Shown piece after piece: positions 1-57,688 of a stretch of DNA of 64,000 nt. This stretch comes from Thiobacillus denitrificans ATCC 25259 (lineage in GTDB: Bacteria; Pseudomonadota; Gammaproteobacteria; Burkholderiales; Thiobacillaceae). Location: contig NC_007404.1 in the NCBI RefSeq assembly GCF_000012745.1, positions 124,001 to 188,000 of the forward strand, written 5' to 3'. The position numbers and the translations under genes are program-made. Under the pieces are notes generated by a model, which worked only from the letters and a program-made list of their open reading frames with translations, ran no database searches and was not told the origin of the DNA. Every line of letters starts with the position of its first letter. The first letter of the stretch is position 1.

Positions 1-723
1 GAAAAGAACTCGCGCGGCCTCGCCTCGCGCTGGAAATACTTCTGGCAATCGGCGATCGGCCTCGTCGTCGCGGTCTATCTGTGGCAGACGGCGAGCCTGC
101 CCGCCCACACCGAACTCATCATCCCCTTCCTCAAGCAGGCGACGTTCGGCCTCTCGGCCGCGGCCTTCATCGCGCTCACCTACTTCGTCATCGTCGGTGC
201 GAGCAACGCGGTCAATCTCACCGACGGACTGGACGGCCTCGCGATCCTGCCAACCGTGATGGTGGCGTCGGCGCTCGCGATCTTCGCCTACGTCGCGGGC
301 AACGCGGTGTTCTCCAAATATCTTGGCGTCCCCTTCGTTCCAGGTGCCGGCGAACTCGCGATCTTCTGCGCCGCGATGGCCGGCGCCGGCCTCGCCTTTC
401 TGTGGTTCAACGCCTACCCAGCCGAGGTGTTCATGGGTGACGTCGGCGCGCTCGCGCTCGGCGCCGCGCTCGGCGTCGTCGCCGTCGTCGTGCGCCAGGA
501 GATCATCCTTTTCATCATGTGCGGCGTGTTCGTCATGGAGACCCTGTCGGTGATGATCCAGGTCGCCTCGTTCAAGCTGACCGGCAAGCGCGTCTTCCGC
601 ATGGCGCCGATTCACCACCACTACGAACTGAAGGGCTGGAAGGAAAACCAGGTAGTCGTGCGTTTCTGGATCATCAGCATGATGCTGGTGTTGATCGGCC
701 TGTCGAGCCTCAAACTTCGATGA
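1..723 (+). CDS. mraY: MraY, phospho-MurNAc-pentapeptide translocase (5' end outside window)
   Basis: Catalyses lipid I formation: it transfers phospho-MurNAc-pentapeptide from UDP to undecaprenyl phosphate at the inner face of the cytoplasmic membrane. The visible 240 codons have several hydrophobic segments and the family motifs [20 protein letters not shown] and the HHHYE loop. The C-terminal membrane segment ends in SLKLR. The start lies before the window. The stop TGA (721-723) overlaps an ATG at 720 that opens a 53-codon frame; the last 66 bases of this gene are repeated at 816-881 in front of murD. This end matches the normal family C-terminus, so the gene looks intact. Confidence 0.97.
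658..723 (+). repeat. Direct repeat, copy 1: 3' end of mraY
   Basis: The last 66 bases of mraY match positions 816-881 at 61 of 66 bases. The similarity starts sharply at GTGCGTTTC and runs through the TGA. Confidence 0.95.
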
Positions 724-881
724 GCGGAACCATGATGAAACGCAGGGCGGAAAGGTTGGGGGGAGACTCACGTGCCGGTGCAACCGGCACGTTACGTCGA
801 CACCACAACCCGACCGTGCGTTTCTGGATCATCAGCATGATGCTGGTGTCGATCGGCCTGTCGAGCCCGAAACTCGGATGA
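720..881 (+). CDS. Candidate 53-aa membrane peptide built from a duplicated mraY tail
   Basis: This frame starts at an ATG overlapping the mraY stop (ATGA) and ends in a TGA overlapping the murD ATG (ATGA), so it could be translationally coupled on both sides. The N-terminal half is Arg-rich ([10 protein letters not shown]). The C-terminal half repeats the last membrane segment of MraY (WIISMMLV) with changes L to S, L to P and R to G. A 9-bp perfect hairpin with a 3-base loop lies at 771-791. No family is recognised. It may be a real small protein or only the remains of a duplication with a 92-base insert; expression cannot be judged from sequence. Confidence 0.35.
771..791. other. Perfect inverted repeat in the mraY-murD insert
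   Basis: CGTGCCGGT, three-base loop, ACCGGCACG: a 9-bp perfect stem without a T tract. It lies inside the candidate 53-codon gene, so it is not a typical terminator. Confidence 0.8.
816..881 (+). repeat. Direct repeat, copy 2: mraY tail at the murD start
   Basis: Second copy of the mraY 3' end, 158 bases downstream of the first. Its final ATGA supplies the murD start codon, which is the overlap expected of an undisturbed mraY-murD junction. This suggests copy 2 is the original end of mraY and that copy 1 plus the intervening 92 bases were added. Confidence 0.95.
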
Positions 882-48325: not shown

Positions 48326-48441
48326 AGGGGTCAGGATTCAGGGATCAGGATTCAGGGGATGAGCGGGCTGCGCCCGCGTCAGAGACGACGCGGCCTTCGG
48401 CCGCTCACTCCCTGACCCCTGAATCCCGGCCCCTGACCCCT
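48326..48441. repeat. Palindromic interspersed element, copy 1 (after tkt)
   Basis: 116 bases with inverted ends AGGGGTCAGG and CCTGACCCCT. Between the arms are two GC hairpins (GCGGGC/GCCCGC and GCGGCC/GGCCGC). The ends contain repeated GGATTCAGGG units. The same layout occurs at 49477 and 63293. No coding capacity. Confidence 0.9.
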
Positions 48442-49476: not shown

Positions 49477-49477
<1 letters not shown>

Positions 49478-49590
49478 GGGGTCAGGATTCAGGGATCAGG
49501 GTTCAGGGAATGCGCGGGCGTAGCCCGCCCAAATCAGGGGTGCGGCCTCGGCCGCTCGTTCCCTGACCCCTGAATCCCGACCCCTGACCT
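49477..49590. repeat. Palindromic interspersed element, copy 2 (at the gap stop codon)
   Basis: 114 bases. The last A of the gap TAA is the first base of AGGGGTCAGG. The inner hairpins are GCGGGC/GCCCGC and GCGGCC/GGCCGC, and the outer ends pair. Between it and pgk are a GCCTTAAGGC palindrome (49601-49610) and a 7-bp hairpin (49613-49635). Confidence 0.9.
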
Positions 49591-54828: not shown

Positions 54829-54858
54829 AGCCCAGCATCGCCTTCAACGCTGCCAGCC
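54829..54858 (-). repeat. Copy of the rep 3' end (distal)
   Basis: 30 bases matching 55708-55737 at 29 of 30. On the minus strand it encodes GLAALKAMLG and a stop, like the last residues of Rep. It marks one edge of an 0.88-kb segment. Confidence 0.9.
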
Positions 54859-55705: not shown

Positions 55706-57688
55706 TCAGCCCAGCATCGCCTTCAACGCCGCCAGCCGGTCGCTGCCGCTGGCCTTCGCTTCCGCGGTCGTCGGTTTTTCCGGCATGCGCACCTCATCGC
55801 CCAATTCATCGATGAAGCGTGACGGATCGCAGGCGACCGACTCGCGGGCGCGCTTGCGGCGCGAGCAGTAGGACAGCGTCAGCGACTTGCGCGCGCGGGT
55901 GACGCCGACGTACATCAGGCGGCGCTCCTCTTCGAGGCGGCCTTCGTCGACCGCGTCGCGGTGCGGCAGGATGTTCTCCTCGACGCCGACCAGGAAGACG
56001 TGGCCGAATTCGAGTCCCTTGGCTGCGTGCAGGGTCGACAGGCGTACGGCGTCGGACTCTTCCTCTTCGCGGCCTTCGAGCAGCGTGATCAGCGCGATGG
56101 TTTGCGTCAGCTGCAGCAGGTTCTTCTCGTCCTCTTCGCCTTTTTTCGTAATCCAGGCGGCGAATTCGAGTACGTTGTTCCATTTGCTCTGCGCCGCGCG
56201 CTGGTCGTCCTGGTCGAAGAGATAGACCTCGTAGCCGATCGTCTTCAGGAGGTCGTCGAGCAGTTCGCCGGCCGGCTCGCGCGCGACGCGCTCCTCCATG
56301 CGGTTGATGAAGTTGCAGAACTCGGTGAGTGGCGTGAGATGTCGCTCACCGATCTGTGATGCGGCGGCGGCCGAAAAGACTGCCTCGAACAGGCTGACGT
56401 GCAGGGTCGCGGCGACCTGCCCGAGCTTTTCGAGCGTGGCGGCGCCGATGCCGCGCTTGGGCGTGGTGACGGCGCGAATGAAGGCAGGGTCGTCGTCGCT
56501 GTTGGCGATCAGGCGCAGGTAGGCGATCACGTCCTTGATTTCCGCCTTGTCGAAGAACGACTGGCCGCCCGAGAGCTGATAGGGCACCTTCTCGTTCCGG
56601 AGCGCCTGCTCGAACACGCGCGCCTGGTAGTTGCCGCGGTAGAGGATCGCGTAGTCGCGCCACTCGGTGCGGTGCTGGAACTTGTGCGATAGCAGGCGCA
56701 TGACGACCGATTCGGCCTCGTGCTCGTCGTCCTTGGTCGGCATGACCTGGATCGCGTCGCCGTGGCCGAGGTCGCTCCACAGGCGCTTTTCGAAGAGCTT
56801 GGGGTTGTTGGCGATGAGGCTGTTGGCGGCCTTGAGGATGCGTACGGTCGAGCGGTAGTTCTGCTCGAGCTTGACGACATGCAGATGCGGGTAGTCCTCG
56901 TTGAGCTGCCTGAGGTTGTCGGCCGAGGCGCCGCGCCAGCCGTAGATCGCCTGGTCGTCGTCGCCGACCGCGGTGAACGCGGCGCGCACGCCGGTGAGCT
57001 TCTGCAGTAGCCGGTACTGCGCGACGTTGGTGTCCTGGTATTCGTCGACGAGGATGTGGCGCAGGCGGTTCTGCCACTTCTCGCGCAGCTCGGCGTGGGT
57101 GTCGAGCAGTTCGGCCGGCAGGCGGATCAGGTCGTCGAAGTCGACCGCCTGATAGGCGCGCAGCGTCGCGTCGTAGCGGTCGTAGATCTTTGCGTACACG
57201 CGCGCGTTGTCGTCCTCAGCCGAAGCCAGGGCGGCGGCGGGCGACTTGAGCTCGTTCTTCCACAACGAGATGCGCGACACCGCGCGGCGGATTTCCTGCT
57301 TGTCGGTGGTCTTGATGATCTCCGACACGATGCCGGCGGCGTCGGCCGAATCGAGGATCGAGAATGCGGGCTTGAGCTCGGCGAACTTCGCGTCCTCGCG
57401 CAGCATTCTGAGGCCCATCGAGTGGAAGGTCGTGACGATCAGGCCCTTCGTGTTGACCCCGTGGGTCAGCTTGGCGGCGCGCTCGGCCATCTCGCGCGCG
57501 GCCTTGTTGGTGAAGGTGATCGCGGCGATCGAGCCCGGCTTGTAGCCGCACTCGCCGATCAGGTAGGCGATCTTGTGCGTGATGACGCGGGTCTTGCCCG
57601 ACCCCGCCCCGGCCAGCACGAGGAGCGGGCCGTCGAGGTATTTCGCCGCTTCGCGCTGCGGCGGGTTGAGCGCTGCGAGCAGGCTCAT
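55706..57688 (-). CDS. rep: Rep-like superfamily 1 DNA helicase
   Basis: 660-aa 3'-5' helicase. Walker A GAGSGKT, DEYQDTN, GDDDQAIYGWRGA, LEQNYRS, STLHAAKGLE. Length is close to E. coli Rep (673) and shorter than UvrD. The ATG at 57688 overlaps the stop of the glutaredoxin-like gene (ATGA). Its last 10 codons are duplicated at 54829-54858. Confidence 0.92.
   Translation of the reverse strand: MSLLAALNPPQREAAKYLDGPLLVLAGAGSGKTRVITHKIAYLIGECGYKPGSIAAITFTNKAAREMAERAAKLTHGVNTKGLIVTTFHSMGLRMLREDAKFAELKPAFSILDSADAAGIVSEIIKTTDKQEIRRAVSRISLWKNELKSPAAALASAEDDNARVYAKIYDRYDATLRAYQAVDFDDLIRLPAELLDTHAELREKWQNRLRHILVDEYQDTNVAQYRLLQKLTGVRAAFTAVGDDDQAIYGWRGASADNLRQLNEDYPHLHVVKLEQNYRSTVRILKAANSLIANNPKLFEKRLWSDLGHGDAIQVMPTKDDEHEAESVVMRLLSHKFQHRTEWRDYAILYRGNYQARVFEQALRNEKVPYQLSGGQSFFDKAEIKDVIAYLRLIANSDDDPAFIRAVTTPKRGIGAATLEKLGQVAATLHVSLFEAVFSAAAASQIGERHLTPLTEFCNFINRMEERVAREPAGELLDDLLKTIGYEVYLFDQDDQRAAQSKWNNVLEFAAWITKKGEEDEKNLLQLTQTIALITLLEGREEEESDAVRLSTLHAAKGLEFGHVFLVGVEENILPHRDAVDEGRLEEERRLMYVGVTRARKSLTLSYCSRRKRARESVACDPSRFIDELGDEVRMPEKPTTAEAKASGSDRLAALKAMLG
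55708..55737 (-). repeat. Copy of the rep 3' end (in the gene)
   Basis: The coding end of rep; pairs with 54829-54858, 879 bases apart. Confidence 0.9.

Follow-up and report, generated by a model that had tools for sequence, protein, structure and literature searches.

The window, meaning the whole stretch of 64,000 nucleotides that was analysed, is part of the single-contig genome of Thiobacillus denitrificans ATCC 25259 (2,909,809 bases) and opens within the 3' part of mraY, followed by murD and ftsW. Here and at all loci below, gene names are those we presume from recognised protein ends. The end of mraY is present twice, 657-723 recurring at 815-881 with 62 of 67 positions identical (61 of 66 when counted from 658) and a start-to-start distance of 158, which makes it the longest direct repeat of the window at search settings that covered copies within 5 kb. 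An earlier note on this DNA had reported this duplication and, through the second copy, a 53-codon frame at 720-881; both are confirmed, the ATG at 720 overlapping the mraY stop (ATGA, 720-723) and the TGA at 879-881 overlapping the murD ATG at 878. In the mechanical open reading frame list this frame is nested in a longer one, 519-881. The same note's statement that ATGA junctions are used throughout the cluster proved wrong, as the last base of murD is the first base of ftsW (2302). The features are as follows.

1-723, + strand: 3' part of mraY, running off the window start (open frame; name by recognition)
657-723, + strand: tail copy 1, the mraY end with its stop codon (reference copy of the direct repeat)
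720-881, + strand: bridging frame of 53 codons with ATGA overlaps at both ends
737-743, + strand: left arm GAAACGC, part of the mraY tail inverted, able to pair with 660-666 (copy 1) or 818-824 (copy 2); helix 2
747-768, + strand: 5' strand of helix 3; includes the conserved GGGnGAGACT (covariation, core alignment)
753-813, + strand: family core according to covariance model R2 (G000:C1:124753-124813, E 3.8e-14)
770-792, + strand: terminal hairpin ACGTGCCGGTGCAACCGGCACGT, helix 4 (folding, covariation)
796-817, + strand: 3' strand of helix 3 (covariation)
815-881, + strand: tail copy 2, the second mraY tail, ending in the murD start overlap (direct-repeat search)
878-2302, + strand: murD (open reading frame list; name by recognition)

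Two other repeats were observed in the window. The rep 3' end is duplicated, as the earlier note had remarked, with 29 of 30 positions identical (54829-54858 and 55708-55737), so that a second rep 3' end lies ~880 bp downstream of rep; any kinship with the mraY duplication looks doubtful, since model R2 finds no copy there. Among 25 relatives searched, matches to rep and to the stretch between its two copies sit apart, which looks like a local insertion or rearrangement rather than a family copy. Two copies of a AGGGGTCAGGATTCAGGGATCAGG-type repeat were also seen 1151 bp apart, at 48326-48438 and 49477-49589.

A conserved hairpin within Thiobacillus

The whole insert was found in 17 of 56 genomes of the genus, some of them incomplete and this one included, whilst 33 matched only in the mraY-tail part and six gave no match. 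This comparison with relatives, which the earlier note had asked for, rejects an assembly error. The spacer between the tail copies is 91 nt long in all 17 carriers, with no indel ever, and the copy spacing is 158 in each of the 16 carriers where it is measurable (the tail of G009 contains Ns, and the sequences of G021 and G027 stop inside copy 2).

Changes counted by parsimony at codon positions 1, 2 and 3 numbered 8, 0 and 26 in mraY copy 1, 34, 45 and 49 in the spacer and 14, 12 and 31 in copy 2, indicating that the spacer is hardly selected as a peptide. The signal in copy 2 is mixed: summed over genomes, codon differences between the two copies were synonymous in 27 cases and amino-acid-changing in 16, a lean that leaves room for some peptide constraint. 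All differences were synonymous in G020 (6:0), G029 (4:0) and G023 (4:0), and all six were changing in G019, where W-to-R and L-to-R replacements interrupt the membrane helix.

Across the 17 Thiobacillus copies, the spacer and the first bases of copy 2 form a single long hairpin of 36 pairs, in which 97.4% of cells are paired, compared with 93.9% in shuffles, and nine pairs have changed on both sides, compared with 3.3 in shuffles and 0-2 when the partners were slid. One-sided changes that keep pairing numbered 18, all giving G.U on the mRNA strand, against four A.C cells, which the opposite strand would read as G.U; the molecule that folds is thus more likely to be the transcript, or single-stranded DNA of the sense strand. 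Only two of 200 shuffles matched the fold of the spacer, and none of 200 shuffles was as stable as the fold of 640-885. The tail copy takes part in the pairing: G020 has A instead of T in an Arg codon of both tail copies and, correspondingly, T instead of A in the arm; G069 retains an arm/tail mismatch at the same codon site. The conserved feature is this long hairpin, with strong covariation, and not the spacer peptide. The tail duplication and the in-frame bridging frame of the earlier note therefore stand, whereas neither of its two readings does in the form offered: a new small membrane protein fits poorly with a spacer that has no codon signature, a core read in another frame in other genera and the broken helix of G019, and a neutral scar does not explain an indel-free spacer in 17 species with compensatory changes.

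Carriers are scattered on a FastTree tree of the mraY and murD flanks, built without the insert and tail from 39 rows (17 carriers, 21 non-carriers of the genus and one outgroup), and carrier/non-carrier pairs (G029/G061, G020/G011, G021/G002 and G027/G016) have support of 1.00. Between G020 and G011 the upstream flank shows few differences for the most part, with much more divergence in ~450 bases before and ~240 bases after the insert and a second raised stretch deeper in murD; the locally raised divergence is as expected of homologous recombination. The single tail of G011 differs from G020 copy 2 at 3 of 66 positions and from copy 1 at 8 of 66. Both tail copies of one genome have local variants in common (GCGGTTC in G069, GCGATTC in G020, AAAATCCG in G064 and G030), so that the copies seem to have been homogenised. 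The mraY-murD junctions of G001, G002 and G057 (L018, L025 and L030), which have no family insert, hold other repeats with CACAGAG-type units, palindromic by eye, indicating that the spot accepts other insertions too.

A dispersed structured repeat family of Betaproteobacteria

A covariance model built from the 17 Thiobacillus copies (R1) recovered, within the genus, those copies, their reverse strands and two weak matches (E 0.34 and 0.49). As no second copy was seen in the genus or in 369 genomes of the class, a single-locus element was considered; genomes of the order overturned it, with R1 matches at E<=0.1 in 16 of 300, this one included (best 13 candidates per genome scored). Of eleven new loci that were inspected, seven lie at mraY-murD and duplicate their own genome's mraY tail, three lie at atpG-atpD with 11-23 nt of the atpG end duplicated, and L081 lies at neither junction. 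A degenerate pattern run over 84,980 species genomes gave a set of 32 loci, 20 at mraY-murD (L089 placed there via its contig) and 12 at atpG-atpD. All are from Betaproteobacterial records save L088, L092 and L103, labelled only "Proteobacteria", and L096 and L107, labelled "Gammaproteobacteria", the last two carrying the insert sequences of Thiobacillus genomes G031 and G021.

In an alignment of 22 diverse cores (A4), picked by the exact pattern, which fixes part of their conservation, 95.5% of cells are paired (78.9% in shuffles) and 56 cells are changed on both sides (17.4 in shuffles); pairs with two-sided changes number eight, a count that 109 of 500 shuffles reach. At one pair, flanked by invariant G.A mismatches, all 11 mraY cores have G-C and all 11 atpG cores have C-G; the mraY loci L078 and L125, outside A4, have C-G there. 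In columns 22-38 of A4, many cores were seen to close on GCGNAGC between G.A mismatches. GCGNAGC is an unusually stable DNA minihairpin, so a role of single-stranded DNA is possible.

At E<=0.01, model R2 had matches in 66 of the 399 genomes searched from the order, spanning 39 of 158 genera and reaching at least 14 copies in some genomes (best 14 candidates per genome scored; about four of the 399 genomes expected by chance). Among 369 genomes mostly from outside the order, two matched: this genome and one weak match at E 0.007 (best 15 candidates per genome scored). Within the genus, 31 of 56 genomes matched at E<=0.1 (best 100 candidates scored; about six expected by chance), with copies beyond mraY at atpG-atpD in G012, G013, G019, G074 and G075 and after genes with glmS-like and pstB-like ends, among others. 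The present genome holds the mraY copy only, the next match among 150 scored candidates having an E of 8.7. Elsewhere, copies also lie near ftsW-murG and other gene ends. Overall, these searches show the repeat in the window to be one copy of a dispersed, structured, palindromic repeat family of Betaproteobacteria.

Many copies begin a few bases past the stop codon of a gene, whose end then recurs on the far side of the repeat. The duplicated tail spans 44-68 bp at mraY where readable, 11-39 bp at most atpG loci and 22-110 bp in the sister genus, in a reading that left out parts of L096-L102 and about L129-L134 and covered the 32 pattern loci separately. A universal tail duplication was rejected, as 12 of 20 loci in one set inspected have no clear duplicate. 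The sequence between stop and core often includes a piece of the gene tail in inverted orientation: an arm exactly complementary over at least 10 bases to the last 115 bases of its own gene occurs in 16 of 37 loci (6 of 12 mraY, 1 of 8 atpG and 9 of 17 others), compared with 3 of 1138 when arms were set against the tails of other genes and with 8 of 3700 shuffles. A survey of arms over 41 loci, in two of which no core was recognised and in some of which (e.g. L197) the frame finder used the wrong frame, gave the longest complements, of 14-17 nt, in L122, L136, L189 and L195. An arm copied from the start of tail copy 2 was also considered and is the weaker option (runs of at least 7 in 13 of 36 loci and in 25 of 994 cross-gene controls; of 39 loci, L095, L097 and L114 had no scored duplicate), as arms match copy 1 more strongly. 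At the pstB-like 3' end in L190 (1452-1575), both tails spell YITGRFG* with almost all wobble bases different, and the arm fits the upstream copy 1 better than copy 2. L197 also has a pstB-like 3' end.

Some copies are oriented opposite to the gene: L143 and L144 near ftsW-murG, and L124 and L154 at the start of a ppx-like gene. In the latter two, from G680 and G465, the first codons of the gene beside the antisense copy are duplicated, indicating that gene starts, not just ends, can be duplicated. Tandem arrays of two to four tail-plus-hairpin units occur at atpG-atpD (L103, L122 at G513 C4:317430-317769, and L182). In G055 (L149-L152), two core-like hairpins lie inside a 280-bp repeat with GGAAACGCTGAA ends, whose copies are about 96-98% identical and in which, by eye, terminal repeats of its own and target duplications of 4 bp can be made out; it is apparently a miniature inverted-repeat transposable element (MITE). 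The order of tail with stop codon, inverted part-tail, core hairpin and second tail, as shown for many copies, is a frequent form of the family and not a universal one.

The bridging frame and explanations for the insert

In 29 of 31 testable mraY loci, with copy spacings of 147, 155, 158, 161, 163 or 164, a start codon positioned between -4 and +2 relative to the mraY stop opens the frame that continues into the second MraY tail; every one of the 16 Thiobacillus carriers that could be tested keeps this frame. A broken frame in relatives, which the earlier note had held would speak against its gene, is clear only in L140, which has no start, and doubtful in L126, where the start is at +23. Under a looser rule (-8 to +30), 30 of 31 mraY loci keep a frame, compared with 9 of 19 atpG loci, in several of which copy 2 is poorly placed, and 8 of 13 other control loci. 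The mraY loci are related by descent, so that the count of 29 of 31 represents some ten or eleven lineages; its contrast to the control loci is modest. Other genera read the core in a different frame. Because the peptide varies and the murD start overlaps the frame's end, it is simplest to suppose that translation has to pass through the hairpin on its way to murD; most simply, then, the bridging frame would have been kept since murD must stay translationally coupled.

The account that we consider probable joins these observations: a dispersed structured repeat, frequently in the form of tail, arm, core and second tail, that spread as a hairpin and whose frame at mraY-murD serves as a bridge. 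Such repeats would spread, now or formerly, as short non-autonomous hairpins, and insertion or local copying would duplicate roughly 11-110 bp of the flanking gene; as the gene would thereby stay whole, chiefly insertions at gene ends might survive. On the mraY-murD transcript, covariation and G.U pairs suggest that the hairpin forms on the mRNA strand. Ribosomes finishing mraY would restart at the ATGA, read across the hairpin and stop at the ATGA on the murD start, so that coupling of murD would be independent of the peptide sequence. Both the host benefit of the repeat and its mode of spread are ones that we infer from sequence. Against this account, the arm rule fails at most atpG loci, many copies have no clear tail duplicate and no movement machinery was identified. 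More tentatively, and with the odds in our view against it, the family may be a mobile hairpin that inserts at stop codons and copies the host gene end both inverted and direct, the bridging frame being kept where genes overlap. We know of no mechanism that explains direct and inverted copies of a host gene end; were this version true, each site would receive its own tail-hairpin-tail unit and essential operons would survive the insertion.

A purely selfish hairpin, its structure kept by mobility, with recombination bringing copies to mraY and deletion between the 66-bp repeats removing them, is possible, if less than probable. The sister pairs of carrier and non-carrier are consistent with it, as are the diverged tract around the insert of G020 relative to G011, the closeness of the single G011 tail to copy 2, the multi-copy genomes and tandem arrays, and the MITE-like repeat of G055 with its two core-like hairpins. 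However, no transposase linked to the repeat was found, Thiobacillus carriers have few copies besides the one at mraY, and their constant spacing of 158 points to descent rather than repeated insertion.

It is unlikely, in our judgement, that the insert is a regulatory RNA switch, in which copy 1, arm and copy 2 form one of two mutually exclusive hairpins, A:B or B:C, the choice between them falling to ribosomes that finish mraY and tuning murD, or atpD at atpG-atpD. The arm is able to pair with either tail copy, the CGA codon in both copies of G020 has its matching T in the arm, the arm matches local copy 1 codons over 11-13 nt in L121, L125, L140 and L142 from other genera, and the element recurs at two core operons across many genera. 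Yet its distribution is patchy, with close sisters lacking it (G029/G061, G020/G011), the mismatch in G069 is retained, and copies after unrelated genes suggest no common regulation. The arm bases 745 and 746, just beyond GAAACGCA, are moreover among the most changed sites in Thiobacillus (8 and 6 changes), as expected if the arm pairs with copy 2, where both bases bulge.

We regard it as very improbable that the frame encodes a small membrane protein with an Arg-rich leader ahead of the last MraY helix. The kept frame and the synonymous differences between copies, exclusive in several species (G020, G029, G023) and 27:16 overall, speak for it, and the spacer, the changing core frame and the G019 helix speak against it; the copies are also homogenised, and recombination with foreign mraY tails would likewise yield synonymous differences. 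A neutral scar or assembly artefact would suit the absence of the insert from most genus genomes and is hardly credible given its presence in 17 of 56 with an indel-free spacer, the covariation and the copies with their own local tails in other genera.

The findings place a structured repeat family inside core operons of Betaproteobacteria for the cell wall and ATP synthase, recognisable by the direct and inverted copies of a host gene end. They offer a testable case of a strong hairpin tolerated between overlapping genes via a bridging frame, and caution that small open reading frames at such junctions need not encode selected proteins.

Relation to known repeat families

The family is apparently unreported. 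With the covariance models of Rfam 15 the whole window matched only a tRNA, and 500-1000 alone gave one chance match outside the element; no description of the family was found in the literature searched, which was represented mostly by listings. A search for plasmid or phage carriage with one 65-nt copy gave no match.

Like MITEs, the family is short, non-coding and dispersed. Unlike them, it has no common terminal inverted repeats seen outside the core, and the flanking duplicate varies in length, taking in some 11-110 bp of the host gene; terminal inverted repeats with a fixed short target duplication were seen only in the 280-bp repeat of G055. Integrative elements can replace the 3' end of a gene, e.g. 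e14 in icd, and the family resembles them in having a gene end upstream of a second one, with pstB copy 1 synonymously recoded at L190. It differs in that no integrase or cargo lies between the copies and the same core follows unrelated genes. Integron attC sites are likewise imperfect hairpins soon past a stop codon, with the R' core GTTRRRY; GTTACGT in the window and GTTATGG in most Thiobacillus copies depart from this core, and some other family copies read GTTAAGC.

The nearest kind is the REP/BIME repeats with their RAYT transposases, which, in excerpts of two papers, are short palindromic repeats beside stop codons that form composite arrays, as here (PMC2817692, PMC3733652). REP sequences, in an excerpt, bear a GTAG or CGTC tag at one palindrome end (PMC3733652); by eye, none of the 22 A4 cores has either tag at either end. 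They usually exceed 100 copies per genome according to another excerpt (PMC2817692), compared with at least 14 family copies in some genomes (best 14 candidates scored) and one in this genome (150 scored). Y1_Tnp was present in 16 of 24 genomes searched, a count in which RAYTs are not separated from other Y1 enzymes. Dependence on a RAYT was considered and is not supported, as no Y1 transposase was found in G055 (at least 14 copies) or G680 (at least 11 copies), two of the richest genomes. Unlike REP, the family core is longer and structured with conserved G.A mismatches, and the tails of many host genes are copied both inverted and direct. As the cores have no REP tag and REP/BIME is the nearest kind, we class the family as a new variety of palindromic repeat. 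Capture of a gene end does have a precedent, since four cases are described in which a BIME came to include a rayt gene's 3' end, a useful parallel to the capture of gene tails here (PMC2817692).
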